Of a stretch of 25,052 bases of DNA, positions 5,527 through 19,633 are shown piece by piece. Position 1 is the stretch's first letter, and every line of letters starts with the position of its first letter. The stretch is taken from positions 1 to 25,052 of IMG/VR virus record IMGVR_UViG_3300027963_000317; one strand, written 5' to 3'. A program made the position numbers and the translations under genes. This DNA comes from a virus. The notes beneath the pieces are model-generated. The model was given only the letters and a program-made list of their open reading frames with translations, searched no databases and had not been told where the DNA came from.

Positions 5527-6375
5527 TTAGGTTCCCCATTGGTTCTTGAAGAGAGGAACTTGAAGCCGATCACTGTATCTCAAACCATGTTTCATTGCTA
5601 ACAATGCTACATTACGATTGTTCAATGCGTAAACACTTTCCACACCGCCAACTGGCATTAGATAAACATGTCCTGTGAAACCTGCTTTACGATATGCGGC
5701 AATAGCACATTCAGCATCAGCAAAGTCTTGTTCTGTAGCAATAACAAACTTCAAATATGCTGTACCACGTTTTTCATAGTCGCAAACTACTTCAGGAAGA
5801 ATAGCTTCTTCCCACTTCTCACCACTGCATGGCAGTTTGGCACTTACACTAAATGTAACTTCTCTATCCCATTGTTTGGCAGTCCATTCGCCTAAATAAT
5901 GTTTAAACTCTTCTGTTAGCTTTTGAGTGCCGTTTGTTTCGAACGTGATCTCTTTCAAACCTGCCATCTTAGGATTGTTTAGCAAGTCTGGATAAGCACG
6001 TTGCCAACCTAGCAACGGTTCACCACCTGTGATGACCAAGTGTTCATCCTTCCATTCACCATGCGGAATAATCTCTGCAATACGATCTGCAATAGCATCA
6101 CTGGTTAGCATTGGACTTAGGTCTTTAAACTCTGGCATCCATGAGGCATAGGAGTCGCAGCCTGTACTTACTAGTGGTAGCTCTTCATATTTGTTAAACA
6201 TATGAGCCACTTGAGAGATATCATGTCTTTCGTGACTTTTCTCTCCCCTAGCCATCCCAAAGCCGTCACAGGTAAAGTTACAACCAAATGTTCTAAGGAA
6301 CACGCTGGGCACTCCCATGTATCTGCCTTCACCCTGAATTGAATAAAATAACTCTGCTACTTTAATTTTGCTCAT
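5527..6375 (-). CDS. queE: QueE, 7-carboxy-7-deazaguanine synthase (radical SAM)
   Basis: The protein has 282 residues. It begins with the QueE hallmark FYSIQGEGRYMGVPSVFLR (10-28), followed by GCNFTC (C32, C36), a GCDSYASW segment (C73) and the radical-SAM VITGGEPLL motif (about 114-122). QueE converts 6-carboxy-tetrahydropterin to 7-carboxy-7-deazaguanine (CDG), the committed step to preQ0 and deazaguanine bases. The three cluster cysteines are spaced CX3CX36C, whereas cellular enzymes have CX3CX2C or CX14CX2C, so about 35 residues are inserted in the cluster loop. In phages this enzyme normally serves DNA modification, and a DpdA-like transglycosylase and QueD-like protein are in the same window. 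The ATG follows AGGAAAAAT. Confidence 0.93.
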   Translation of the reverse strand: MSKIKVAELFYSIQGEGRYMGVPSVFLRTFGCNFTCDGFGMARGEKSHERHDISQVAHMFNKYEELPLVSTGCDSYASWMPEFKDLSPMLTSDAIADRIAEIIPHGEWKDEHLVITGGEPLLGWQRAYPDLLNNPKMAGLKEITFETNGTQKLTEEFKHYLGEWTAKQWDREVTFSVSAKLPCSGEKWEEAILPEVVCDYEKRGTAYLKFVIATEQDFADAECAIAAYRKAGFTGHVYLMPVGGVESVYALNNRNVALLAMKHGLRYSDRLQVPLFKNQWGT

Positions 6376-6376
6376 A

Positions 6377-6661
6377 TTATTTTTCCTGATCTTTATAGAT
6401 GTTGGACCATACTTTTAGTTTTTCAATCTTGGCCTGCTTGGCTTTATTTAGGCCTTGATCACTAACAACATTATATAATTTTAACAGATCAATCATGGCA
6501 AGTAAATCCCCAATCTCACCTTCAAGATGTTCTGCATTGGTTAGAGGTTTATTGGGTTTGGCGTTGTCCAAACCAAATCTAAAACACTTGCTGATTGCCT
6601 GTGTGACCTCTGCACATTCCTCTTGTGTTATTAACAAGATTTCCCGTAGTTGTTCATTCAT
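6377..6661 (-). CDS. MazG-like nucleotide pyrophosphohydrolase
   Basis: The protein has 94 residues, the size of a single MazG-like all-alpha NTP pyrophosphohydrolase domain. The metal-binding pattern EExxE is at 14-18 (EECAE) and ExxD at 49-52 (EIGD). Such enzymes cleave NTPs or dNTPs to the monophosphate and pyrophosphate. In marine phages MazG homologues are common auxiliary genes, thought either to clean nucleotide pools or to alter host stress signalling. Its place directly upstream of queE may point to the nucleotide pool. It overlaps the upstream small gene by four bases. Confidence 0.8.
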   Translation of the reverse strand: MNEQLREILLITQEECAEVTQAISKCFRFGLDNAKPNKPLTNAEHLEGEIGDLLAMIDLLKLYNVVSDQGLNKAKQAKIEKLKVWSNIYKDQEK

Positions 6662-6846
6662 ACAAGATCCTTAAACATTAATTTTCGTCCTTCTTCACCA
6701 ATTTCATTATCAAATAAGTCTTTAACCAAAATCATCATACAAGATGCTAACATGAGTAAATCTTCTCGATCATCACACATCATAATTTGGCGATTAATTG
6801 GCTCCATTAATTCCATCATTCTTTTTTTAACATCATGGTCGTTCAT
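6658..6846 (-). CDS. Small hypothetical protein, 62 aa
   Basis: A Met-rich, acidic, probably all-helical protein with MELMEPINRQIMMCDDREDLLMLA near its centre. It is linked to both neighbours by four-base overlaps, which supports translation. No motif of known function. It could be a small regulator or adaptor, but the sequence does not say. Confidence 0.65.
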   Translation of the reverse strand: MNDHDVKKRMMELMEPINRQIMMCDDREDLLMLASCMMILVKDLFDNEIGEEGRKLMFKDLV

Positions 6847-7301
6847 TGTTGGGCCTTGTCAGTAAGGTATTTTTCATTATGAATCCACTTGTTGTTGACA
6901 AGGAATCCCCATTCACGTTTGTGAGGTCCTGGCATAAACAGAGTCCATGCAGTTACACCTTCTTTTAATTCAATTCGATGATAGCTAGTAGGTTGACTAA
7001 TTCTAAAATGTCCAGGGCCACGCCAATATTTTATTTCATTGATCTTTTGACCCAAGGTGTTAAACACGGGCACCCATTCATAATAACCGCCGGTCAAAAT
7101 AAACGTAGCATAGGGCCAAGGATGATCATGAACATCGTCGGGATCACCTTTTAGGAATTTATGAATGAACACGTTAAATGGAAAATGTTTACGGGTATTG
7201 AATAATACATAATAACGTTCAAGATACGGTTCGTTATTCTGTCGATCCATGATAATACGTTTTCGACCCATTCTATCCAACCAATTAAAAAACCATTTCA
7301 T
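6843..7301 (-). CDS. Cupin-fold protein, possible metal-dependent dioxygenase or isomerase
   Basis: The protein has 152 residues. The metal-binding cupin motif 1 is visible as DDVHDHPWPYATFILTGGYYE (55-75) with H58, H60 and E75 as likely ligands, and H108 (SYHRIEL) as the motif 2 ligand. The rest is beta-rich, as expected. Cupins range from dioxygenases to sugar epimerases and storage proteins, so the reaction cannot be assigned. It lies near a glycosyltransferase and the deazaguanine genes. Start and stop overlap neighbours by four bases. Confidence 0.72.
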   Translation of the reverse strand: MKWFFNWLDRMGRKRIIMDRQNNEPYLERYYVLFNTRKHFPFNVFIHKFLKGDPDDVHDHPWPYATFILTGGYYEWVPVFNTLGQKINEIKYWRGPGHFRISQPTSYHRIELKEGVTAWTLFMPGPHKREWGFLVNNKWIHNEKYLTDKAQQ

Positions 7302-7513
7302 TTACAAATCTCCAAAAATTCATTAAGTCTATGTACGGCTTCATCAAAATCAACTGCCCATACTTTAGCTTCTAAATTGTTGCCAACAATTTTTATATCA
7401 TATGGAATCACACCATTAAATTGAAATCCTTCTGAAATTTCAGTATTAACAACAAACTCCTGTAAATGTTTAGCTCTAAAAATCAAATTATTGGCCATGT
7501 CAATGGAATTCAT
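7298..7513 (-). CDS. Small hypothetical protein, 71 aa
   Basis: The protein begins MNSIDMANNLIFRAKHLQEF and contains PYDIKIVGNNLEAKVWAVDF, suggesting one helix followed by beta strands. It has no recognised family. It overlaps the glycosyltransferase stop and the cupin start by four bases each, the usual sign of coupled translation in this region. Confidence 0.65.
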   Translation of the reverse strand: MNSIDMANNLIFRAKHLQEFVVNTEISEGFQFNGVIPYDIKIVGNNLEAKVWAVDFDEAVHRLNEFLEICK

Positions 7514-8616
7514 TCTTCGTCCTTTGTAATTCTTTCTAATAATTTATTTGCACTAAAAAAATGTTTAGTCAAATCTTCCGTTTGTTTATACAGTTGTCCC
7601 AATCTTTTTTCATAATTTGCCATTGTGACAACAATATGATGACACAATTCCTGTCTATGTATTAGATAGCTATCCCAATCTTGTGTCCATTCGCTGGGAT
7701 ACTTGAATCCTTCGTAATACATTTCTGTATATGACAACCGATTTGGAACCATAGGAATAACATCTACAATAGCACCCTCGTAGCAACTAATACCCAATGT
7801 TTCTTGCAAGTTGGCTGAAAATACTATTTTTGCTTGACTTAATAAGGTGTGATATTCATGTTTGGTTAATGGTTGATCTTGACAAACTACAAACTCATAT
7901 TGTGGCAAATGCTCTTTTAAGTCACGAAAGATATTAACTTGTTTTTCTGGAGCAATGCGATGCGGAAATAAAATTAAATCACGTTTGGGTAAATTTTTAT
8001 ATGGAATTAATGTATCCACCATATACTCCATGGGCCATCCTGACCTTACAATTTTACCACCATCGTAGCGTTCAGCAAAGTCCTCTTCATACCAAGGATT
8101 TTCTTGAGGATATCCAGCATGAAGTAATTCGTCTATGAATAACTTAACATGGAATTCTGTAGCAAAGTAGTTATGATCAAATGCGTGATAGAAACTTTTT
8201 TCAGCATTTCTGACCCAAGGCTTATTGCCCACAAGCCGACCTAAAAAGTCTTGAGGATCGTAACTGCCAGCATGCCATAAGCCATGTGTAGTTACTGGAA
8301 TACCCAGTAGTTCACTCATGTACTTTAAGTTTATAATGCCTGGATGCCAAGCATCAGTAAAAACAAAGTGGTCGCCAGGATGAACGGATCCACTACAAAA
8401 TAAACGGCCCATCTGCTCAACTTGACTAGCTTTATATATGTTAGTTCCACCAAAATTGAGAAAAGCCCCAGGAGTGGTAGCAGTCGGAATATCCGTAGGT
8501 CCAGAAATAATTTGAACATTGTGTCCTGCCTTTTTAAGTAGATAAGGTAAATGCAATTTCCATTCGCAGGTATAACGAGTGGAAACTGATTCTAGATCAA
8601 TTAAAAAAATCGTCAT
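7510..8616 (-). CDS. GT-B glycosyltransferase (GT4-like)
   Basis: The protein has 368 residues with a two-domain GT-B layout. The N-terminal half has a Rossmann-like start, LIDLESVSTRYTCEW, and HLPYLLKKAGHNVQII. The C-terminal donor-binding domain shows FPHRIAPEKQ (217-226) and an E-rich GT4-type motif ETLGISCYEG (272-281) followed by IVDVIPMVPNRLSYTEMY. The acceptor may be modified DNA, as in T-even phages, or a host or virion surface glycan. The neighbourhood contains deazaguanine and oxygenase genes, which makes a DNA-linked role worth testing but does not prove it. No signal peptide. Start overlaps the upstream stop (ATGA). Confidence 0.78.
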   Translation of the reverse strand: MTIFLIDLESVSTRYTCEWKLHLPYLLKKAGHNVQIISGPTDIPTATTPGAFLNFGGTNIYKASQVEQMGRLFCSGSVHPGDHFVFTDAWHPGIINLKYMSELLGIPVTTHGLWHAGSYDPQDFLGRLVGNKPWVRNAEKSFYHAFDHNYFATEFHVKLFIDELLHAGYPQENPWYEEDFAERYDGGKIVRSGWPMEYMVDTLIPYKNLPKRDLILFPHRIAPEKQVNIFRDLKEHLPQYEFVVCQDQPLTKHEYHTLLSQAKIVFSANLQETLGISCYEGAIVDVIPMVPNRLSYTEMYYEGFKYPSEWTQDWDSYLIHRQELCHHIVVTMANYEKRLGQLYKQTEDLTKHFFSANKLLERITKDEE

Positions 8617-8894
8617 TGCTGATAACGATTATTTCCGCCACGATTAAAGTCTGGCCGATATTCTTTATTTTTAATCGGCTCAGGACGACCTTCACGCTCA
8701 CGTCGTGCCTTGCGTTCTAAGTATTCCTGTTCCTGCTGGAATTTTCGATAGTCAGGACTACGGTATAAGTCCTTGGCATCGAATTTAATTAAGTTAAACC
8801 TACAATAGTCTAACCACTGGTCAAGATCATCAAAAATACGAGTAACCTCAGTCTTCATTTTTAAAGTTTTCTTGACGTATGTAGGCAGTGCCAT
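8613..8894 (-). CDS. Small basic hypothetical protein, 93 aa
   Basis: I choose the ATG at 8894-8892 (MALPTYVKKTLKMK) because AAAGGAAAA lies 5 bases upstream and the start falls just after the QueD-like gene. A start at 8942 would overlap that gene. The C-terminal third is highly charged (QEYLERKARREREGRPEP) and probably a single helix ending in an Arg/Asn-rich tail (GGNNRYQQ). It may bind nucleic acid, but that is only inferred from composition. Confidence 0.65.
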   Translation of the reverse strand: MALPTYVKKTLKMKTEVTRIFDDLDQWLDYCRFNLIKFDAKDLYRSPDYRKFQQEQEYLERKARREREGRPEPIKNKEYRPDFNRGGNNRYQQ

Positions 8895-8916
8895 GTGTTT
8901 TCCTTTTATTAATTGT

Positions 8917-9294
8917 TTAAGGTTTGTATTCAATAATACCATCGGACTCGCCGTCTTCTGATACTACTACTTCATAATATCTTTGACCATAATTAGGTAA
9001 AAGATGATTTTCCAAAATATCAGTAGCAATCATTTCACAACTTTTATGATTTTGATTGCCTGATTTAATGAAATTATGTAGCGCCCATTTGACTAAGAAA
9101 AATTCTAATTCTCGATCAAGATGAGTGACTGAAATTTTTACTTCAACTTTGAACATGTGACGATGTTCGTTTTCTAAAAATTTGATACGGGGATCAATAC
9201 TACCAGCATTGGGGTAATAATGAAACCCTTCAAATTCTGTACGTACTTTAATAAAGGTCATTGTTGAAGGTCTAACGTCTTGTTTAATATTCAT
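8917..9294 (-). CDS. QueD / 6-pyruvoyl-tetrahydropterin synthase-like T-fold protein
   Basis: The protein has 125 residues. FEGFHYYPN (21-29) and EHRHMFKVEV (43-52) reproduce the three zinc-binding histidines of the PTPS/QueD family (H25, H44, H46). SCEMIATDILE (85-95) corresponds to the T/S-x-E helix, and VVVSEDGE (109-116) to the pterin-binding Glu near the C-terminus (E113). The usual catalytic Cys just before the HxH motif is absent; C86 is the only nearby alternative. QueD makes 6-carboxy-tetrahydropterin, the QueE substrate, so its presence in the same chain fits a deazaguanine pathway. No clear Shine-Dalgarno precedes the ATG at 9294; M12 (9261) is a possible later start. Confidence 0.62.
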   Translation of the reverse strand: MNIKQDVRPSTMTFIKVRTEFEGFHYYPNAGSIDPRIKFLENEHRHMFKVEVKISVTHLDRELEFFLVKWALHNFIKSGNQNHKSCEMIATDILENHLLPNYGQRYYEVVVSEDGESDGIIEYKP

Positions 9295-9297
9295 AAT

Positions 9298-9816
9298 TTA
9301 ATTGATGTAATTAAGATTGCCAGATACGCTAATTCGTATGTCTTTTCCAGTATTTTTACTCACAGAATGTTGCATCCAGCCTGGGAACAATATAATTGAC
9401 CCTACTTCGGGGGTTATATGATTTTTAAATTTATCGAAAAACCAAAATGTAAGATCACCTGAACCAGGTGGCACTTGCACATAATACACCCACGCAAATG
9501 GATAATTTCCATGACGATGCAAATTTGTACTCTCCAATGGACGATGTATTTGCCCCCACTGCTCCATGTTTCTAAGTCTCTTATCTTTAACAAAATCATT
9601 AATAGCTGATATTAGTTTATTTGCCTCACTATGTTCTGGGATTTCTAATAAACTATCTTCAATTTTAGTGTCATTGAGATCATTGGTCAACCTGATATCA
9701 ATATTTTTTAAAACTTCTTTAGCTAATTTTTCATTATCAACGCCAAAAGTATTAAATTTACTAATTGTTAGTTCCATCAAAACAAGATCACAATCAAAAT
9801 CTATTTTAATTGTCAT
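9298..9816 (-). CDS. Putative 2OG-Fe(II) oxygenase (TIGR02466-like)
   Basis: The protein has 172 residues. LHRHGNYPFAWVYYVQVP (99-116) gives the proximal iron ligands H100/H102. GSIILFPGWMQHSV (139-152) gives the distal H150, and RISVSGN (161-167) the 2-oxoglutarate-binding Arg. Such phage oxygenases use 2OG and O2 to hydroxylate proteins, nucleotides or small molecules; the substrate here is unknown. Its C-terminal half resembles the protein at 19716-20363, which ends RISVSGN in the same way, so the two are likely paralogues. The start is preceded by AAGGAT. Confidence 0.72.
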   Translation of the reverse strand: MTIKIDFDCDLVLMELTISKFNTFGVDNEKLAKEVLKNIDIRLTNDLNDTKIEDSLLEIPEHSEANKLISAINDFVKDKRLRNMEQWGQIHRPLESTNLHRHGNYPFAWVYYVQVPPGSGDLTFWFFDKFKNHITPEVGSIILFPGWMQHSVSKNTGKDIRISVSGNLNYIN

Positions 9817-10325
9817 ACTGGTGTATCCTTAGTATATTGATCCCAATAAGTATATTTTTCTTTATTCATTAGATTATGCAATTGATGTGTCCACACACCT
9901 GTATTTGTTGCTCCCCAAGTACGATCATCAATTTTCAGCGTGGCATTATAATTGTAGAGTTTGATGTAGGGTACCTTTACACTGATCATTGGAACAAATC
10001 TATCATTTTCACACCAACCATCTTCATGTATTTCCTCAGCATACTTTACATCAAAGTCTAAGGTGACCCAATAATTTTCATTTAAACAACCTGTAATAAG
10101 ATTACCCCAAGTTTTCCAATCATCATAATTTTGAGGATTAAAACTTTGACTGGTACCAAAATATATATGTTTAATTTCAATATCTTTGTTTGCTTGTTGT
10201 AATATTTCCTCCAATGGCGGAGTTCCTACAACAAATAATGTTTTCATACCGTGACAAATAGTATGTTCAACTTCGTATCCTGTAAAGTAAATTATATTTT
10301 GTCTTTGGTTAGTATTTAATGCCAT
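9813..10325 (-). CDS. Conserved phage hypothetical protein, 170 aa
   Basis: The sequence contains KHIYFGTSQSFNPQNYDDWKTWGNLI (near 51-76), YWVTLDFDVKYAEEIHEDGW (near 84-103) and a Trp-rich C-terminal part. I do not recognise a family with a known role. It overlaps the 2OG oxygenase downstream by four bases and has a good GAGGT ribosome site. Composition suggests a soluble alpha/beta protein; there is no signal peptide or membrane segment. Confidence 0.7.
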   Translation of the reverse strand: MALNTNQRQNIIYFTGYEVEHTICHGMKTLFVVGTPPLEEILQQANKDIEIKHIYFGTSQSFNPQNYDDWKTWGNLITGCLNENYWVTLDFDVKYAEEIHEDGWCENDRFVPMISVKVPYIKLYNYNATLKIDDRTWGATNTGVWTHQLHNLMNKEKYTYWDQYTKDTPV

Positions 10326-10985: not shown

Positions 10986-11885
10986 TTATCGCCAATTGAT
11001 AAACCCTCTACTATAGCCATTTGGACGATCCAAACCATCCGCAAATGCCTGTTGCCATTCTGTATTACGATTATACGCTCGAGTCCAAAATTTGTCAACA
11101 TCAATATGTTTATTTTCAATCATCCAAACAGCATCAATCATACATTGATGAAAATTTGGATTCCGGGGGCTAGGGCGAATCGTAGTACAGGATTTCCATA
11201 ATTGCTGTTGTGCTTCATCTCGATTCACTGCTTTACCAACACCATCAATGATCAATGCGTTATTATTTAGGCCAATATCTATACCTAAACTGTATTTTCC
11301 ACTAAGGTCAATAATTATGTCATAAGTTTTTTCAGTTTTTGATAATAACCGATCACCCCAAATATTTTGATTATTTGATCCTAGTATATCAATATTTTCA
11401 TCTTTTGAAAATAGTGCCAAATAGTTGTAGGCAACCCATGATAAAAATCCACTACCAATAATCAAAACTTCTCCGTATTTGGCAATATTTTTAATTTTAT
11501 AAAAATCGTGCTGTATTAGATTAATTGCACAGGCTACAGGTTCTATGATATATCTGGGATGAGCTTCTGGTACTAACACAAATTCATCTTTTTGAACATT
11601 ATAATAGTCTGCGTAGGCAGGTTCACCGCGAGTGGCTACAAAATCACCAATTTTTATATAGTCTTCTATTTTTTCACCAATTTCAACAACTTCTCCTAAT
11701 CCTTCGTGACCCTGCATCTCTAATGGCAACGGGCCAAAGGTACCTTGCATCATATCAATATCACTACGGCAAACTCCAGTCATAACATTTCTTACACGTA
11801 TTTGATCTTCTCCGCAAGGGGGAACTTCATAGGAAACTTCTTCAAAATAACCTTGACCTGTAGTTTGTAAGCATCTCACTTTCAT
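10986..11885 (-). CDS. Zinc-type alcohol dehydrogenase (MDR superfamily)
   Basis: The protein has 299 residues, shorter than the usual 340-380. The N-terminal catalytic domain keeps GVCRSDIDMMQG (C39) and GHEGLGEVVEIG (H60, E61) as catalytic zinc ligands, plus EPVACA (115-120). The four-cysteine structural zinc loop is missing. A nucleotide-binding motif is seen in VLIIGSGFLSWVA. The shortened length comes mainly from a reduced cofactor domain. MDR enzymes oxidise or reduce alcohols, often sugars or polyols. It overlaps the Gfo/Idh/MocA-type gene by an ATGA, so the two products probably act on the same substrate. Confidence 0.82.
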   Translation of the reverse strand: MKVRCLQTTGQGYFEEVSYEVPPCGEDQIRVRNVMTGVCRSDIDMMQGTFGPLPLEMQGHEGLGEVVEIGEKIEDYIKIGDFVATRGEPAYADYYNVQKDEFVLVPEAHPRYIIEPVACAINLIQHDFYKIKNIAKYGEVLIIGSGFLSWVAYNYLALFSKDENIDILGSNNQNIWGDRLLSKTEKTYDIIIDLSGKYSLGIDIGLNNNALIIDGVGKAVNRDEAQQQLWKSCTTIRPSPRNPNFHQCMIDAVWMIENKHIDVDKFWTRAYNRNTEWQQAFADGLDRPNGYSRGFINWR

Positions 11886-12763
11886 AAATTTTCAATACTT
11901 TTATGTATCCATAAATCTATTTCTAATTGATTTTGCCAAAATTCTTGATTGTCTTCGTTTGTAATAGCATCAACAATCATATTATGATATGCTTCTTCTG
12001 GGCACCAACCTAATTCAAATTTTTCTATGCTATTATCTTCCATGATAAATTTAATAGAGCTATCGTCTTCTTTCATAGTACGCCAGTCTGCTAGTAAAGT
12101 CCATTTGTTACCAAATAATATATGACACCGATCATCTACATTGTAAGTGCCTGCTGGATTTACTGTGCCGTATTCGGTACTTTCAATACTTTCTAGATTC
12201 CAGCAAGTCAATGCCATTTTTCCGGTTACTTGTGCTTGTTTCCATTTAGGATTCATGGCAACAAACAAACTTAACAAATGTGGCATTAAATCTCTACTAA
12301 CACCACCAAATGCTTTTTCTCTAGTAGTAAACCAACTACCTGGATTTGGAATACAATTTTTACGTAACCAATGAATATGTACCTGTTTTGAATGAGTTGC
12401 TTGATAAAGTAAATCAGCAATATTACTGCGCCACATATTATTCTTAACCATCATAAATCTAGTATTGGGAAAAGACTTAATTAAACTTTCCCATATATTA
12501 CTACTGGCTACACCTGGTTTTTCAATAAAAACAATTTTACTATATTTGGCCACTTTGGCAGCTAATTCAAAATGCGTGAAATTGGGAGTACAAATATGCA
12601 CAGTATCAAACAAACGGCACTCTTTGATAGCATCATCTACAGCTAAGAAATCTGCTTTTTTATTAGGATCAGAGTCAACGGTAATTACACCGTGACCAAG
12701 AGTGTCTAATATTGTGGCATATAAATTGCCGATACCCATTCCAATAATTAAACTTGTTTTCAT
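11882..12763 (-). CDS. Gfo/Idh/MocA-family NAD(P)-dependent oxidoreductase
   Basis: I choose the ATG at 12763-12761 because it puts the Rossmann strand MKTSLIIGMGIGNLY at the N-terminus, as in this family, and lies one base after the HAD stop. This gives 293 residues. Other features are CTPNFTH (58-64) and the family signature EKP (81-83). These enzymes oxidise or reduce sugar, inositol or nucleotide-sugar substrates. Pairing with an MDR dehydrogenase suggests a two-step sugar or polyol conversion. The substrate cannot be named. A link to a DNA-base decoration or a surface glycan is possible. Confidence 0.82.
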   Translation of the reverse strand: MKTSLIIGMGIGNLYATILDTLGHGVITVDSDPNKKADFLAVDDAIKECRLFDTVHICTPNFTHFELAAKVAKYSKIVFIEKPGVASSNIWESLIKSFPNTRFMMVKNNMWRSNIADLLYQATHSKQVHIHWLRKNCIPNPGSWFTTREKAFGGVSRDLMPHLLSLFVAMNPKWKQAQVTGKMALTCWNLESIESTEYGTVNPAGTYNVDDRCHILFGNKWTLLADWRTMKEDDSSIKFIMEDNSIEKFELGWCPEEAYHNMIVDAITNEDNQEFWQNQLEIDLWIHKSIENL

Positions 12764-12764
12764 A

Positions 12765-13184
12765 TTAAGAGATTTTAAAGTTTGCCAAACTGTGCATAAC
12801 CCATGTGTCATAATGTATTACAACAAGTTTGTGATTGTGTTTAACACAAAGATCAACCATTTCTGAAGAAATAACTGGATCACTTTCAACGTAAATTTCG
12901 TAATCTTGTTCTACGCACATTCTAAATTTAAATTCAGCTGGGGTTTCATCTAACGATGGCCGCATGTACAAATTAATTGGCATACGTTGTAGTTGTTGCA
13001 ACCATTTAATTGTAACATCACGATGTATCTCTAGTCTAGCAGTTACTATGTCAAACGGCAATAATGGGTTAATCAAAGGTTTGGTATATAGGGTTTGATT
13101 AAAAAATTCCTCATCTGTAAGATTAGGAATTACATTATAATCAGGGATTAATACACCATCTAAGTCAAAAGCAATTTTATTCAT
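12765..13184 (-). CDS. HAD-superfamily phosphatase-like protein
   Basis: The protein has 139 residues, a small cap-less HAD. Motif I is DLDGVL (8-13), with both aspartates present. A motif II threonine may be in FDIVTARLEIHR, and a motif IV acidic pair is in IYVESDPV. Such enzymes commonly dephosphorylate nucleotides or sugar phosphates. It overlaps the phosphoribosyltransferase gene by eight bases. A nucleotidase acting beside a phosphoribosyltransferase would fit base salvage or removal of a phosphate from a base precursor; this is inference. Confidence 0.78.
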   Translation of the reverse strand: MNKIAFDLDGVLIPDYNVIPNLTDEEFFNQTLYTKPLINPLLPFDIVTARLEIHRDVTIKWLQQLQRMPINLYMRPSLDETPAEFKFRMCVEQDYEIYVESDPVISSEMVDLCVKHNHKLVVIHYDTWVMHSLANFKIS

Positions 13185-13653
13185 CTCTATACCTCACTCC
13201 ATAATCTTGGCTAATTTTTTTACTTCCCCATATTGGCTCTTCAGCAAAGTATGGCAGTCTAACACCTTGTATAATTTCGTTACGAATATCTATGGGAGTA
13301 TGCCAATCACTAAACAATACTGCCCAACGCCATTCAGTAGTGGGGTAATATCTTTCCATGAACAGTTTGGTATCGTTGTATGTGCTGCCTGACAGAATAT
13401 TGTCGTCCACAAACACCAAACGTTCAGGATCACTGCTGGTGATTAATTCTCCACGTTCTGACCAATATGCACCTAAGGGCAGTTTCAACATCTGTGACAC
13501 CCACATACCATAACTGAATCCGCTTCTTGCAACAGCAACAATTTCATTGGGGGCAAATTGTGCTATCTGTAACAGCATGGTATCAAAATAGAATTCTCCC
13601 TCGTCAGCTGTCATGCGTCTGGGCTGTTCGGGAAAGTCGGTAAATTTATTCAT
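13177..13653 (-). CDS. Phosphoribosyltransferase-like protein
   Basis: The protein has 158 residues. The type I PRTase signature is clear: IVAVARSGFSYGMWVSQML (38-56) for the PP-binding loop region and LVFVDDNILSGSTY (79-92) for the PRPP-binding motif, with acidic D83-D84. These enzymes join a base with PRPP, or regulate purine synthesis. The base cannot be predicted. It overlaps the DpdA-like gene by eight bases, so it is probably co-translated with it and may handle a deazaguanine base or the guanine released by transglycosylation. Confidence 0.78.
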   Translation of the reverse strand: MNKFTDFPEQPRRMTADEGEFYFDTMLLQIAQFAPNEIVAVARSGFSYGMWVSQMLKLPLGAYWSERGELITSSDPERLVFVDDNILSGSTYNDTKLFMERYYPTTEWRWAVLFSDWHTPIDIRNEIIQGVRLPYFAEEPIWGSKKISQDYGVRYRDE

Positions 13654-15211
13654 TGATACTATTTTCCAAATCTATGAGTTTATCTTCATCTAAAATTGGC
13701 ATTGCTGAAACTTCTGATACACTTTTGTCTAAGACCATTTCTTCAGTATCAAATAAATTAAAGAATGTATTTTTTGCCATTCCATCTCGACTACGTGTGC
13801 CTTCAAGAGCCCTTAGGAATGTAATTCCATCCTCAATCATTTCAAATGCTGATTTTTTATCTTTGGTGTTAAACAGGTCTTCAATAAAGTTAGCAAAATA
13901 TAGTATATTGCGTGGAACCCAGTCACTGTATTGATCAAAACTGCTGTCATTAGCTTTGACAGCTCTCCAAGTGCGCCAGTTAATCTTACCTTGAGTTTTA
14001 GCAATTTCAATGTCCATTAGTTGGTTAGCACGTTGTACGCTGGTAATGTGACTGTTGACATTATGTGCCATCATCAATGCATAGCTAAAACTATCCCAAC
14101 TAGTCTTACCTTCCTTGCCAATTTTATTTAACATGCCTGGTTTATACCAGCAAAGATCGCCCATTGTTATTCTGCTGGCAATTTCACTGTCCCATGGGAA
14201 TGGGATTTTAGATTCTGCAAGTGCTTTGTTGTCTGGGGCTTTTTCCATAATAGTGCTCCACCGTTTGATCGAATGTTGTGGATTTGTGTAGACAAGTCCG
14301 TGTGCTGTGGCAATAAACGGTGAGGCGCAGTCAAAAGATATGGTAATTTCTTCATTGATGTGTTTCCTTATTTGTCTTTGAATCAGTGTTAAAAAACAAG
14401 CCCAGTCTAATTGGGCTGTGCCCAAAAAGTGCATCCAATTTTTGCCTTTTAGCATACCATCATCTCGCATGGTCATTAGACGTTTAAGTGTGACATCCAT
14501 CATGCTCATGTTGGCACCTCCCATGGCCCAACCTTCTGCGGCCTTGTCTCCCCATACTGCAGGATCACTGAATTCCTTGACTCCGTTATACCATTGTTCA
14601 GCTCGTTCCCAATCACTACCCTGTAGTACATTTAGGAATTTAGTTTGACCCAGTCTATTCTTTAAAAAATATTCATTATTGAATTTAGTTTTTTCCAAAC
14701 AGTCTTCGAAAGTCTTTAATCCAGTTTTTTCAGTATGATTGTGATCACACGCCCATGTGGGAACGTCCAACATCATGCTCCAATCAGCAGTGCATTCTAA
14801 CCATTCTAAAATGCTTTGCCTAGTCTTGTTAGCGTTTTTACCTTCAAAATCCAACCAATCAAATTTTAGTACACCTTTACCAATTTGGAATCCGCCAGAA
14901 TCACCTAAGATCAATGTTTTACTTCTGTCTCGATCTTGTATCATGCTTTCTTGTGTCAAACTCTTGTTCAAATCAAGTTGTGCATGACCTGCAGAATACA
15001 GACCATATTTGTAGGTAAAATAGCCTTGTTCTTCATTGAGAAAATTCATGCCTTCAATGCCACGATCAAAACCTTTGGGGATTCTGTTGTCTTCAATAAA
15101 TTTACCTAACCGTTGTTTGGCAACATATGTTTGGTAAAATGTACTGATAGCTGGCAAATAAACTGCCATGCCATCCTGTAAAGGTGATAAATTAACTGGT
15201 GGTTTCTTCAT
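13646..15211 (-). CDS. dpdA: DpdA-like TGT-family DNA guanine transglycosylase
   Basis: The protein has 521 residues. It shows the TGT fold signatures in order: DSGGFQ (104-109), MLDVPTW (147-153), VLQG (195-198), WAMGG (228-232) and ISFDCASPFIATAHG (291-305). The Asp in DSGGFQ and D294 correspond to the two TGT catalytic aspartates, so activity is plausible. The C-terminal CxCx2C zinc site of tRNA TGTs is not visible, and the C-terminal 200 residues differ from tRNA enzymes. DpdA proteins use this fold to exchange guanine in DNA for a 7-deazaguanine base. With QueE and a QueD-like protein in the same window, a DNA role is more likely than tRNA. It overlaps the upstream gene by 20 bases. Confidence 0.83.
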   Translation of the reverse strand: MKKPPVNLSPLQDGMAVYLPAISTFYQTYVAKQRLGKFIEDNRIPKGFDRGIEGMNFLNEEQGYFTYKYGLYSAGHAQLDLNKSLTQESMIQDRDRSKTLILGDSGGFQIGKGVLKFDWLDFEGKNANKTRQSILEWLECTADWSMMLDVPTWACDHNHTEKTGLKTFEDCLEKTKFNNEYFLKNRLGQTKFLNVLQGSDWERAEQWYNGVKEFSDPAVWGDKAAEGWAMGGANMSMMDVTLKRLMTMRDDGMLKGKNWMHFLGTAQLDWACFLTLIQRQIRKHINEEITISFDCASPFIATAHGLVYTNPQHSIKRWSTIMEKAPDNKALAESKIPFPWDSEIASRITMGDLCWYKPGMLNKIGKEGKTSWDSFSYALMMAHNVNSHITSVQRANQLMDIEIAKTQGKINWRTWRAVKANDSSFDQYSDWVPRNILYFANFIEDLFNTKDKKSAFEMIEDGITFLRALEGTRSRDGMAKNTFFNLFDTEEMVLDKSVSEVSAMPILDEDKLIDLENSINE

Positions 15212-15575
15212 GTGTCAATATCTCTGTTATTTTTAACTGTTCTTCTGCTTGAGCAAGTTCTTGTTTAATACGATTTATATTTTGTCTAGCAAGTTTAACA
15301 GCAGGGTTATCATTGGGTAATGATGCTAGAACTTCTTCTTCACGTTTCTTTTTCCTTGCCCAGTCTAACAACATTATTGTTTCAGTATCAAGTTCAACAG
15401 TGGCATAACTTGTACCAATCATTTGCCAGCCACTGCCAGTAAACACTTCCATTTCTGTGCCGTTGATACGGAGCATACCCGTTACCGGGTTGCTGGTATT
15501 AGGACCAACATAAGGCAAACTAGTGTTACCACCGTTTACAGCAATGCCCCGACCGCCCGTTAACCCTTTTATCAT
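15192..15575 (-). CDS. Conserved phage protein, possible structural role
   Basis: The protein has 127 residues. The N-terminal half is glycine-rich and beta-like (MIKGLTGGRGIAVNGG, then GMLRINGTEMEVFTGSGWQMI), a style common in phage tail or fibre-associated proteins. The C-terminal half is a long charged helix or coiled coil (DWARKKKREEEVL, INRIKQELAQAEEQLKI). I recall similar proteins in marine phage genomes without assigned function. It overlaps the clamp gene's stop by four bases. The structural role is a guess from composition. Confidence 0.68.
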   Translation of the reverse strand: MIKGLTGGRGIAVNGGNTSLPYVGPNTSNPVTGMLRINGTEMEVFTGSGWQMIGTSYATVELDTETIMLLDWARKKKREEEVLASLPNDNPAVKLARQNINRIKQELAQAEEQLKITEILTHEETTS

Positions 15576-16306
15576 GCCTGTGCTGGAATAATATATTTGT
15601 AAACTGCAATACCACTGTCCAGTGTAATTTGCAAGGCGCCGTCATTGCTGAAACTCATTAGCGTGTTATTGGCATCGGCAATTTTTAAAATACTCATTAC
15701 TGCACTGACTGGGTATGTCCATGCTTTGGTAATTTTACCAGTCACACCTGTGGCAAATATAAATTCGCCTGCATGGCTACTGGCATCACCAAAACTAAAA
15801 ATTAGCTTATCGCCATCAGTCTTTGCTAAAAATGATGTATGTTCAGTGTTAGCACCTGCCTGGAATTGAAATCTGTTGATTGCAATAATGCTGGGGTTTA
15901 CTTCCACATGCCAATTGGCACCACGGAATTTGACAGTCTTCAATTTTTCATTGATAATGTCCTGATTCATGAATCTGTAGTCATTTTTAAAATCGCCATC
16001 TGCATTTTCAAAATGTAAACCAGTGGGAATATCCACTCCATTACGTTGGCCAGTAAGAAGTTCAATTTTGGCTTCTTCTTGATATTCCTTACCCTCAACC
16101 AAATACCTAAGTTTGTCCAGTTGTGGCATACCAAATACGCCAATCATTTCAGGGTATGGATTGGCAGTTTCCGCATACATGATAACAGTGCGATCTTCAG
16201 CCATGCTGTCAATTGATGTTTTATCTTTAGTGCCAGTGACTTTGACAATGTTAAGAAAACCTAACTTGTTTGTATGTGCGACAATGTCTTTTAATAGTGA
16301 TTGCAT
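15572..16306 (-). CDS. Probable DNA polymerase sliding clamp (gp45-like)
   Basis: The start is set at the ATG at 16306-16304 (MQSLLKDIVAHTNK) because AAAGGAAAAT lies just upstream; this gives 244 residues, close to the 228 of T4 gp45. Clamp-like features are the initial helix and strand pattern, repeated beta segments, and an ending DGALQITLDSGIAVYKYIIPAQ that resembles the last strands of PCNA/gp45. The assignment rests on size, C-terminal pattern and position beside the polymerase gene, whose C-terminus has a clamp-binding-like peptide. It is read from a consensus sigma70 promoter with an overlapping palindrome. Sequence similarity to T4 gp45 is too weak to judge by eye. Confidence 0.6.
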   Translation of the reverse strand: MQSLLKDIVAHTNKLGFLNIVKVTGTKDKTSIDSMAEDRTVIMYAETANPYPEMIGVFGMPQLDKLRYLVEGKEYQEEAKIELLTGQRNGVDIPTGLHFENADGDFKNDYRFMNQDIINEKLKTVKFRGANWHVEVNPSIIAINRFQFQAGANTEHTSFLAKTDGDKLIFSFGDASSHAGEFIFATGVTGKITKAWTYPVSAVMSILKIADANNTLMSFSNDGALQITLDSGIAVYKYIIPAQA

Positions 16307-16324
16307 TTTATTTTCCTTTATGTA

Positions 16325-16353
16325 ATTATATTTAGGTATTGACAATGTGTCAA
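16325..16353 (-). promoter_or_regulatory. Consensus sigma70 promoter for the clamp gene
   Basis: On the minus strand, TTGACA (16353-16348), a 17-base spacer and TATAAT (16330-16325) form a perfect consensus promoter. It lies about 20-45 bases before the chosen clamp ATG, leaving a very short leader with AAAGGAAAA. Confidence 0.85.
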
Positions 16354-16356: not shown

Positions 16357-16959
16357 TTATTTTTGATTTTTTGAATCAATGTCAGCTATCCATATGGTTG
16401 CGATATATTTTGTTCCATTCATTACAATTTCTCCGCTATGTAATGTATCAGATTTAACTTTTGGATCATCGTAATCATATCTAAAAAATAATGCAGATCC
16501 AGCTTTTGGAATTATATTTAAATTTAAGTGTGGAAAAAATGTAGTACCATTTTCAAAATTATCATTAAAATAAATTATAAAAGTAGCACGTCGATCAATT
16601 TTAACTACGTCTAAATGATGTGGGGGAATATTAAAATAATCAAAATGAGGTTTATAATATTCACCAGTTAAATATTTTGTAATTTGTATTCTTTCTAAAG
16701 AAGTTTTTTCAAGTTTTGGCAAATAGTTTTTGAGCAAATCAAATGAGCGATCCATTATAAAGTTAAATCTATCATCTACGGGATGATAAGTCCAACTATT
16801 TCTATAATCGCCAATCACATTTTGTTTAATGGTAAAATCAAATTGAGGACTTTTTTCAAAAAGAATCTGATCAATTTGTAATGATTGAATTTCTTCTTTA
16901 GATAAAAAAGAATCAAATAATTCTACATATGGGAACATGTTTAATATTTTAGAGTTCAT
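16357..16959 (-). CDS. Prolyl-4-hydroxylase-like 2OG-Fe(II) oxygenase
   Basis: I use the ATG at 16959-16957 (MNSKILNMFPYVELFDSFLS), one base after the polymerase stop; a TTG nine bases earlier is a possible alternative. The protein has 200 residues. YYKPHFDYF gives the HxD iron pair (H105, D107). RRATFIIYFNDNFENGTTFFP is the family's central strand pair, SDTLHSGE gives the distal His (H174) and TKYIATIWI a basic residue for 2OG (K184). P4H-like enzymes are common in aquatic phages. The substrate is unknown; it lies between polymerase and clamp genes. Confidence 0.85.
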   Translation of the reverse strand: MNSKILNMFPYVELFDSFLSKEEIQSLQIDQILFEKSPQFDFTIKQNVIGDYRNSWTYHPVDDRFNFIMDRSFDLLKNYLPKLEKTSLERIQITKYLTGEYYKPHFDYFNIPPHHLDVVKIDRRATFIIYFNDNFENGTTFFPHLNLNIIPKAGSALFFRYDYDDPKVKSDTLHSGEIVMNGTKYIATIWIADIDSKNQK

Positions 16960-16960
16960 A

Positions 16961-19633
16961 TTAGTCAAATGAAAATAATGATGAGAATGTATTAGTATCT
17001 AGGGTATCTTCCAACCGCCATTCTAATACTCCAATAAGATTTTTAATCTTGTTATTGATAATTACAGCTTCCATTTCTGCATGATCAAAAGGTAAATCTT
17101 GAAACCATTTGGGTAATCTTAATTCGTCTACTGGATATGCAATACTGGTATATCCTAAAGCATTAGGCCTAACTTTACAGACAATGACTTTCATGCCATC
17201 TACAATTTGTTGACTGTACTTGTCTCCATTCATGCGTTTTAGCGTATTCCAGTTAATAGCTGCTCGGACATGTCCAGGCATATTGGCCTTGCCCATTTTT
17301 TCTTCTTTGGCTTGATAAGCGGCAATATTATTAGCACGTTTGGGACTACCTTTCTCCCAGCCAGGTCGTGATTTGAATTCTGTTCTAAAAGTAGTAATCA
17401 TATCTAGAATTTCCTGTTCTTCAGCGCCGTTTAGTACTTGAGTTAATACTTCTTCCAAAAATTGTTGCATAAATTCAGGAGTATCACTGCGTTTAAGATC
17501 TAACCCCATGGCTTTAATTTTTCCAGGTTTTCCATCTATATCACTGCGTTTACCTTCTTTATCATAATAAAGAACTGCATACCTTTTTTTGGTAATGAAT
17601 AAACCTTTGATAGCAACAACTTCTCGACCAGCTCGAATAACATCTCCTCGAGTTTTTGGACAATGATGTGCATCCAGCATAAACTGTGGAAATGTTGTAT
17701 TGACTTCTTCAGCAATGGTATCATAAAGTTGAACGATACTATCTTTAGACCATGGAATTTCACCTTTGATAATTTCATTTTTCAATGATGTATATGCGCT
17801 AAAATAGGCACTGTCAGTATCTCCATATATAACGGCCTTACCAGTATGGTTATAATCCCCAGTAATTACTTCATTTATTTTAGCAGCCATATGTTTGGCA
17901 ATACCTCGACCAGTCAGTGTAGTTGATTGTCCAATTCTATTATCAAAAAATCGGCACCCTGAATTCAAAATTGCACCATACAGACTATTTAGGTTAATCT
18001 TCTTGACCAACTGACGTTTATCCCAATATTCTTCTTCAATTTTATTTTCTGCTTTGATTGCTTCTTTGAGTTTGGCCTGCATGTCCTTTCTCTCTGAATA
18101 CCATCGCTTTAATAATCCTGGAATAATACCTTCCTTCTCGTAAGTAAAAATAGTACCATTAGCACTGATCATCCATGGATTATTACTTTCAAAAATTAAT
18201 TCGTAAATTTGAGCACCACTCATTACATCAGTACGTCCGTCTTCCCAATCAATAATAATGTCATTGACTCGATCCTGATTCATGACAAATTCATATTCGT
18301 TACTACCAAATTTACCCTCCCATGCTTCAGCAAACTTTCCACCGTTTTTAGCCATTTTGGTTTCAATTTCTTCTCGAGTATAATCTTGACGTAATTGACC
18401 AACAATAGTTTCTGGGCCCATATTCAATGCACGAATTACACTGGGATACAAACTGTTAATGTCCATACTACCAATCCAATCATGAAGTCCTTTTTTAGGA
18501 ACAGCAACATAGGCACCTGCGGCTTGATTATTGGCATTAGGATCTCTTTTAGGACGACTGGGCACCATCATGCCTCGATGGTGAGCTTCATTAACAATGG
18601 CCTGTTCAGTAACAGCCACAGCCCCCATAGTAGTTTGTAATAATACCGTATTTTCATGGGCTACAGTATTGGCTAAACTGATAAATTTTAATTTTTTATC
18701 TAACTTATTCAACAATGCAGTATCTTGTCTGTTATACTCAATGAACTTTTTAAAATCATTATTATATAACTGATCTAACGTTCCTTCATACACTGTTTTG
18801 TTTTCACCAATTTCCATCTCGCCAATTGCATCTAGTCGATAGGTATGACGTTCTTCGTAAGTATATTTTCTATATAGTTCAAGGCTATCCAAGTGTACGC
18901 GACCAATCAAATCATAAGTGACTGCTTTCTTTCCGTATTTTTCGTATTCTCTTTTTTTAGGATATTGATTCCATAAACAAAATCTGCGTGTATCTTCTTT
19001 ACTTAACACTTTGATAACTCTATTTACAGTATACGGAATATCGAAACCCTCACTATTCCATCCACTCAACACATCTGCATCTTCAATTAAATTAAGAAAT
19101 GTGTCTAACATTTCATGTTCTGTTTCAAACAATATAGTGTTGGGAAATTCTTTAATCTGTTCTTGTGCTTGCCCCATGGTCAGTGTCTTTGGCGGTATAG
19201 CCAAACACACCAAAGTATCTAACCATTGCAGATGTACTGATATGGCAGTGATTGGCATAAATGCATCATCAGGACTTGCGTAGCCACGCTCTGGATCAAA
19301 GTCCACCTCAATGTCAAAAAATGCTACATTTAAATTGGGAGTATCTTTGCCAAGATAATTTTCCTCTAGACACCTAAATACAGGATTGATGTCACTTTCA
19401 TACAGCTTATGATTACTATGTATTCTTTGTTCTTTGATGTAATCTTTAAAACTTCTCGCTGATACTTTGGTAAGATTTTCCCCAAAGATACTTTTGTATT
19501 TTCCTTTAGGGTCTGGGTAATAAAATAGATAACGGGCAGGATATTCTTTGTAAACTCTACCCTTGACAGGATCTCGTTCAACAACATTGACTATGTCTGT
19601 TTCACGGTTCCAGATAGCATCGCAATAACTCAT
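16961..19633 (-). CDS. 43: Family-B DNA polymerase (gp43-like) with 3'-5' exonuclease
   Basis: The protein has 890 residues, close to T4 gp43 (898). Exonuclease motifs are FFDIEVDFD (D107, E109), SGWNSEGFDIP (N193, D198) and YNRQDTALL (Y300, D304), so proofreading looks intact. Polymerase motifs are DINSLYPSVI (391-400, motif A), KKINLNSLYGA (motif B, about 544-554) and YGDTDSAY (603-610, motif C). The C-terminus TFSSLFSFD resembles the clamp-binding tail of T4 and RB69 polymerases. It is the main replicative polymerase of the phage. It has AAAGGAAAAG upstream, and a leader with a small reading frame and hairpin that might control translation. Confidence 0.96.
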   Translation of the reverse strand: MSYCDAIWNRETDIVNVVERDPVKGRVYKEYPARYLFYYPDPKGKYKSIFGENLTKVSARSFKDYIKEQRIHSNHKLYESDINPVFRCLEENYLGKDTPNLNVAFFDIEVDFDPERGYASPDDAFMPITAISVHLQWLDTLVCLAIPPKTLTMGQAQEQIKEFPNTILFETEHEMLDTFLNLIEDADVLSGWNSEGFDIPYTVNRVIKVLSKEDTRRFCLWNQYPKKREYEKYGKKAVTYDLIGRVHLDSLELYRKYTYEERHTYRLDAIGEMEIGENKTVYEGTLDQLYNNDFKKFIEYNRQDTALLNKLDKKLKFISLANTVAHENTVLLQTTMGAVAVTEQAIVNEAHHRGMMVPSRPKRDPNANNQAAGAYVAVPKKGLHDWIGSMDINSLYPSVIRALNMGPETIVGQLRQDYTREEIETKMAKNGGKFAEAWEGKFGSNEYEFVMNQDRVNDIIIDWEDGRTDVMSGAQIYELIFESNNPWMISANGTIFTYEKEGIIPGLLKRWYSERKDMQAKLKEAIKAENKIEEEYWDKRQLVKKINLNSLYGAILNSGCRFFDNRIGQSTTLTGRGIAKHMAAKINEVITGDYNHTGKAVIYGDTDSAYFSAYTSLKNEIIKGEIPWSKDSIVQLYDTIAEEVNTTFPQFMLDAHHCPKTRGDVIRAGREVVAIKGLFITKKRYAVLYYDKEGKRSDIDGKPGKIKAMGLDLKRSDTPEFMQQFLEEVLTQVLNGAEEQEILDMITTFRTEFKSRPGWEKGSPKRANNIAAYQAKEEKMGKANMPGHVRAAINWNTLKRMNGDKYSQQIVDGMKVIVCKVRPNALGYTSIAYPVDELRLPKWFQDLPFDHAEMEAVIINNKIKNLIGVLEWRLEDTLDTNTFSSLFSFD

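Follow-up and report, generated by a model that had tools for sequence, protein, structure and literature searches.

Phages encoding the transglycosylase DpdA2 are established carriers of dPreQ0 (PMC6884629), and for the Pseudomonas jumbo phage PA5oct a deazaguanine system was predicted in 2021 (PMC7824862). For a DNA-modifying enzyme that works at a sliding clamp, the experimental precedent is the alpha-glucosyltransferase of T4, which binds the gp45 clamp; clamp binding is not the main cause of the dominance of alpha-glucosylation (PMC13216743). In the viral locus described here, which belongs to a large phage from freshwater, we consider it probable that a DpdA-type enzyme docks on the clamp and inserts a 7-deazaguanine derived from 7-carboxy-7-deazaguanine (CDG) into new phage DNA, with a glycosyltransferase (GT) probably decorating the base.

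The window analysed is an entire IMG/VR record of 25,052 bases, in which all long genes lie on the minus strand and no tRNA genes were found. Inspection of its sequence had assigned one 521-aa product to the TGT family, with both catalytic Asp residues but without the zinc site of tRNA enzymes, and had related it to DpdA.

13646..15211, minus strand: predicted TGT-fold DNA guanine transglycosylase, DpdA-like, 521 aa (Foldseek, VIA-align, motifs in register with TGT/DpdA2)
14900..14902, minus strand: codon of Asp104 (GDSGGFQ), predicted general acid/base, invariant in the 39-sequence alignment
14330..14332, minus strand: codon of Asp294 (SFDCASPF), predicted nucleophile, invariant in the 39-sequence alignment

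Searches of Pfam, PHROG, NCBIfam, PDB (by sequence) and PADLOC returned no match for this protein. It is conserved over its full length in 116 viral loci, has at least 249 pattern-confirmed relatives in viral contigs, and finds its close matches among isolated phages in PA5oct-type Pseudomonas jumbo phages (40%), Vibrio phage 2.275.O (32%) and Sinorhizobium phage Phosso (30%). An AlphaFold model that drew on 39 members of the family (mean pLDDT 65, pTM 0.72, core better) matched only TGTs in the PDB at E<=1e-3 when compared by Foldseek (all 27 matches; E 5e-7), and VIA-align superposed it on TGTs with Z 16-17 over about 300 residues at an rmsd of 5-6 A. The TGT motifs are kept, namely D104 in DSGGFQ, D149, Q197, HFLG and D294 in FDC, which confirms the family assignment and the catalytic Asp pair. 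The zinc site CxCxxC...H of tRNA TGTs is indeed missing, the only invariant cysteines in the 39-sequence alignment being C155, C171 and C295. An enzyme altering the wobble guanine of host or phage tRNA during infection would agree with the nearest solved structures, which are tRNA TGTs. We regard this as very unlikely, since the protein lacks the zinc motif and any Pfam (PF01702) or NCBIfam TGT match, is distinct from E. coli TGT, holds a fixed position in an operon with a polymerase and a putative clamp, and ends in a polymerase-like tail. The most likely role of the TGT-fold enzyme is to replace guanine residues of the phage genome by a protected analogue.

Compared with seven DpdA2 proteins, the family profile gave P=2.7e-5 and placed the catalytic motifs in register, while four unrelated controls gave P 0.25-0.52. 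GDSGGFQ, D149, Q197, HFLG and SFDC line up with nt-1 DpdA2 as well as with known TGT motifs. The proposed relationship to DpdA is thus upheld as a distant homology to phage DpdA2. A protein of Pseudomonas putida phage Illi-2 forms a sequence bridge, weakly matching the family profile (E 3e-4) and matching archaeosine-TGT models. With no BLASTP match to nt-1 and no PHROG match, the window protein falls outside DpdA2 proper (phrog_10773); judging from its sequence, it belongs to a separate subfamily that is distantly sister to phage DpdA2.

Gene order around the transglycosylase is constant, running from the DNA polymerase through the putative clamp, the TGT, the 170-aa protein, the QueD-like protein, the 109-aa protein and the GT to QueE.

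16961..19633, minus strand: family B DNA polymerase, 890 aa (PF00136, 8e-38), upstream of the TGT in 96/96 loci
15572..16345, minus strand: putative sliding clamp, between polymerase and TGT in 96/96 loci; Phosso homologue annotated as sliding clamp
13177..13653, minus strand: phosphoribosyltransferase (PRTase)-like ORF overlapping the TGT stop (weak PF00156)
9813..10325, minus strand: 170-aa partner, 48/48 loci, also upstream of DpdA2 in ACP17
8917..9294, minus strand: second T-fold-like protein, not QueD, 125 aa (phrog_17812), 48/48 loci
8613..8942, minus strand: 109-aa partner, 47/48 loci
7510..8616, minus strand: GT-B retaining glycosyltransferase (GT4/BshA-like), 368 aa, 47/48 loci and 6 other phages
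6843..7301, minus strand: cupin/cysteine-dioxygenase-like protein (phrog_4786, 1e-34), 41/48 loci
6377..6661, minus strand: MazG-type NTP pyrophosphohydrolase (PF03819, 8.6e-5), 26/48 loci
5527..6375, minus strand: QueE, 7-carboxy-7-deazaguanine synthase (phrog_2076, E=1.7e-50; NCBIfam QueE models to 1e-16), 48/48 loci

Polymerase and then the putative clamp gene (244 aa) precede the TGT in every one of the 96 loci with enough flank, and the 170-aa protein, the QueD-like protein and QueE follow it in all 48 loci with 8 kb downstream; PA5oct has a closely similar layout. The putative clamp is placed by synteny and by the Phosso annotation, its profile comparison with gp45 being not significant (P about 0.05), and neither it nor the 170-aa partner found a match in a PDB profile search. 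A pair of ADH-like and Gfo/Idh-like dehydrogenase genes (10986-12811), inserted between the TGT and the 170-aa gene, recurs in 12 other loci and in locus L212. Two 2OG-Fe(II) oxygenase-like ORFs (9298-9816, phrog_81; 16357-16968, phrog_61) were not found in the relatives' loci. The deazaguanine loci of both PA5oct and BUCT-ZZ01 contain PRTases too, and the PRTase-like ORF of the window may recycle the guanine that base exchange sets free.

Typically, the C-terminal peptide of T4-type polymerases is their clamp-binding site. The polymerase of the window ends in a peptide of this type, and a closely similar one lies in the tail of the transglycosylase.

16964..16993, minus strand: polymerase C-terminal peptide NTFSSLFSFD, clamp-binding type
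13751..13771, minus strand: clamp-binding-like tail peptide NTFFNLF of the TGT, residues 481-487, in the low-pLDDT tail

The C-terminal 50 residues of the TGT model are mostly of low confidence, and the motif N-x-F-x-x-L-F within them is nearly invariant (N481 98%, F483 89%, L486 87% and F487 100% among 53 non-redundant members). As in a sliding-clamp client, a short peptide resembling the polymerase C-terminus is thus carried in an unstructured tail. When local ORFs (about 29 per locus) were compared with the polymerase peptide of their own locus, the TGT was the best match in 93 of 97 loci, which are related and not independent. Of 118 phage members, 105 have the tail motif, whereas it is missing from all 50 complete bacterial homologues. 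In marine relatives from MAG bins, FxxLF is retained and the residues next to it vary. In the window family, the polymerase/TGT pair is NTFGSLFSF/NTFGSLFE. Five further phages, four with DpdA2 and one a jumbo Vibrio phage, also show a match to their own polymerase, with the polymerase/DpdA-type pairs SLDDLFE/TLDELFE in ACP17, SLESLFG/SLEELFG in X1, SLEDLFGW/SLDDLFG in YB07, TLDDFFS/SLDSFFD in BUCT-ZZ01, which has its own FF variant, and NTDLFDW/NNDLFGW in Vibrio 2.275.O. These distant phages are independent cases. Genome-wide, the transglycosylase was the best non-polymerase match in ACP17 (226 proteins), X1 (307) and Vibrio 2.275.O (475); in YB07 it ranked 5th with the polymerase's last W kept and first after the polymerase without this W, and in PA5oct it ranked only 23rd. 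Clamp tethering is not universal, because DpdA2 of nt-1, KVP40 and pf16 lacks the polymerase-like tail and the match in Phosso is doubtful.

Conservation within the family would also be expected if the tail were a structural or dimerisation element. This appears improbable, as the tail is absent from the 50 bacterial homologues, which have the same catalytic motifs, the flanking residues vary, and the tails of distant phages follow the C-terminus of the phage's own polymerase. Our preferred reading of the tail is a clamp-binding peptide. The sequence-only reading, whose TGT/DpdA assignment stands, had missed this tail, the fixed place beside polymerase and putative clamp, and the GT partner. 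Similar tails were seen in two further proteins: the second glycosyltransferase of BUCT-ZZ01, located beside DpdA2, has the polymerase-like end AGSLEDFFND (L129:3361-4704), and a zinc-ribbon-like protein (L125:9819-10580), which may be another clamp client, ends in GLDDFFV, with a similar tail, GLEDFFG, in YB07.

The proposed linkage of the TGT with deazaguanine genes was borne out by QueE, found in all 48 loci, and by relatives carrying FolE and QueD or QueF, YhhQ and QueC. The assignment of 5527-6375 to QueE was correct, as shown by the PHROG and NCBIfam matches and the three invariant cysteines C32, C36 and C73. These are arranged as C32-x3-C36 plus a distant C73, not as the compact CX3CX2C cluster motif. 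The product of 8917-9294 had been called QueD-like; this is a genuine, conserved ORF whose one match is phrog_17812 (function unannotated), and it matched neither Pfam PTPS (PF01242) nor, by sequence or profile search, any PDB entry. Its invariant residues are H25, H44, H46, C86, E87 and E113, so that three His in QueD-like positions and a Glu are kept, but the position of the QueD catalytic Cys, four residues before HxH, is L40, and the protein's own invariant Cys86 lies elsewhere. In ACP17, phiST, BUCT-ZZ01 and PA5oct it is present alongside canonical QueD. Because the catalytic Cys is missing and canonical QueD co-occurs in relatives, we exclude that this protein is QueD; its sequence makes it a candidate CDG-processing enzyme. 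Cui et al. in 2023 reportedly predicted a CDG decarboxylase, DpdL, for which we take the protein to be a candidate.

Since the window is the whole record, folE and queC were sought only in relatives. The complete genome of PA5oct encodes FolE, two PTPS/QueD-type proteins and QueE; ACP17, BUCT-ZZ01 and phiST encode FolE, canonical QueD, QueE and the second T-fold-like protein; QueC had no match in any of these four or in Phosso. In Vibrio 2.275.O, the TGT homologue adjoins QueF, YhhQ, QueC and FolE, and a few relatives have divergent QueC-like fragments. Of the bases first suggested (CDG, preQ0 or a derivative), a CDG-derived one stands and preQ0 has become less likely with the absence of QueC from five relatives. 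Given that complete PA5oct combines FolE, QueD-type proteins and QueE with a lack of QueC, CDG rather than preQ0 is probably the source of the inserted base, though a host QueC could act in the pathway. An amidoligase-like gene directly after the TGT of Vibrio 2.275.O (L122:13627-14739) possibly encodes an alternative tailoring enzyme.

The partner GT was modelled with AF2 (pLDDT 88). The model resembles GT4 enzymes, BshA among them (E 1e-8, Z 24-25), and the EX7E motif with invariant E272 and E280 places the protein among GT-B, GT4-like enzymes. Its homologues adjoin a DpdA-type gene and/or a QueD-like protein in ACP17, X1, BUCT-ZZ01, PA5oct and Phosso. Moreover, in seven bacterial loci (L226, L231, L235, L254, L257, L263 and L266) a GT of 40-49% identity lies beside a chromosomal TGT homologue. 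The short gene adjoining the bacterial GT and TGT belongs to the Vut_1/YhhQ family (Pfam-tested in L226 and L231; clusters across eight loci), a family of queuosine-precursor transporters. Mainly because of this two-sided linkage in phage and bacterial loci, we propose that the GT acts on the 7-deazaguanine, and it probably decorates the base. A GT needs an acceptor group, which CDG or 7-deazaguanine does not obviously offer.

In an ordinary DpdA system, preQ0 made via a host or distant QueC would enter the DNA, the tail would be incidental, and the GT would act elsewhere, e.g. in host surface modification. Known DpdA and DpdA2 systems do insert preQ0 or derivatives (PMC6884629), Vibrio 2.275.O has QueC, QueF and YhhQ, and some hosts encode QueC. 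We nevertheless think such a system rather unlikely here: QueC is absent from complete PA5oct, Phosso, ACP17, BUCT-ZZ01 and phiST, the GT accompanies different DpdA subfamilies and bacterial homologues, and the tail, conserved in a low-confidence region, tracks each phage's own polymerase.

Several further associations were observed. In Xanthomonas phage PhiXhv-12 (L130:2669-5903), a related GT lies beside a QueC-domain protein annotated as aminotransferase and beside a gene annotated as GlcNAc-malate deacetylase. The surroundings of other bacterial TGT homologues (most of L215-L274) include a short tyrosine integrase in 39 loci, a gene of about 574 aa that matched nothing in Pfam in 28 loci and a DUF6641-type gene in 24 loci; this neighbourhood is likely a mobile element, and LmuB-like genes occur near the homologues in L224 and L234.

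We propose that the free base CDG would be made by FolE, QueD and QueE. Docked on the phage sliding clamp by a short C-terminal peptide of the same kind as the polymerase's, the transglycosylase would then replace guanine with a 7-deazaguanine base in newly synthesised phage DNA, with Asp294 as nucleophile and Asp104 as acid/base. Because QueC is missing, the inserted base would be CDG or a CDG product made by the QueD-paralogue-like protein 8917-9294, and the GT-B glycosyltransferase would probably decorate it as the last of these steps. Tentatively, and with somewhat more doubt than conviction, we extend this proposal to glycosylated 7-deazaguanine in the DNA of phages and of some bacterial chromosomes, those with the YhhQ-type transporter/GT/TGT cluster; in phages it would be installed behind the fork by a clamp-tethered transglycosylase and sometimes a clamp-tethered GT.

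Tails matched to the own polymerase offer a direct, mutable test of replication-coupled modification, and the GT partner predicts a sugar-bearing 7-deazaguanine in the cultured phages PA5oct, ACP17 and X1. If the reading of the GT is true, glycosylated 7-deazaguanine would possibly be a new DNA base, and the transporter/GT/TGT cluster of bacteria hints at an equivalent on chromosomes. Within the literature searched, which was covered incompletely, no report of a clamp-bound DpdA, of GT coupling or of glycosylated 7-deazaguanine DNA was found. What was already known are the deazaguanine prediction for PA5oct (PMC7824862) and the DpdA2 phages with dPreQ0 (PMC6884629); the clamp tail and GT coupling are new within that literature.

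Compared with known systems, the window protein shares the (beta/alpha)8 fold and the catalytic Asp pair with bacterial queuine TGT and archaeosine TGT, whereas these have the zinc site and the TGT profile that it lacks. Like nt-1 DpdA2 (PMC6884629), it is a phage enzyme of TGT fold that lacks the zinc site and is encoded among deazaguanine genes, and the catalytic motifs of the two align. However, the two show no pairwise BLAST similarity, and nt-1 DpdA2 is about 60 aa shorter and has no polymerase-like tail, in a phage that has QueC and dPreQ0. The partner GT shares fold and EX7E motif with BshA (GT4), which acts on malate and is only 10-12% identical. T4 alpha-glucosyltransferase (PMC13216743) is a DNA-modifying enzyme for which binding to the sliding clamp, gp45, was shown, as clamp docking is proposed here for the transglycosylase; the T4 enzyme glucosylates 5-hmC and is unrelated to TGT. 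PA5oct encodes a direct homologue of the window protein at 40% identity, in synteny with the window; the accessible text of PMC7824862 names the deazaguanine system only and does not describe clamp tail, GT or QueC absence. Finally, the DpdA2-type enzymes of Acidovorax ACP17, Xanthomonas X1 and Synechococcus BUCT-ZZ01 belong to another transglycosylase subfamily, and their clamp is clearly gp45-type, but they have the same partners (GT, second T-fold-like protein, QueE and FolE) and the polymerase-like tail.
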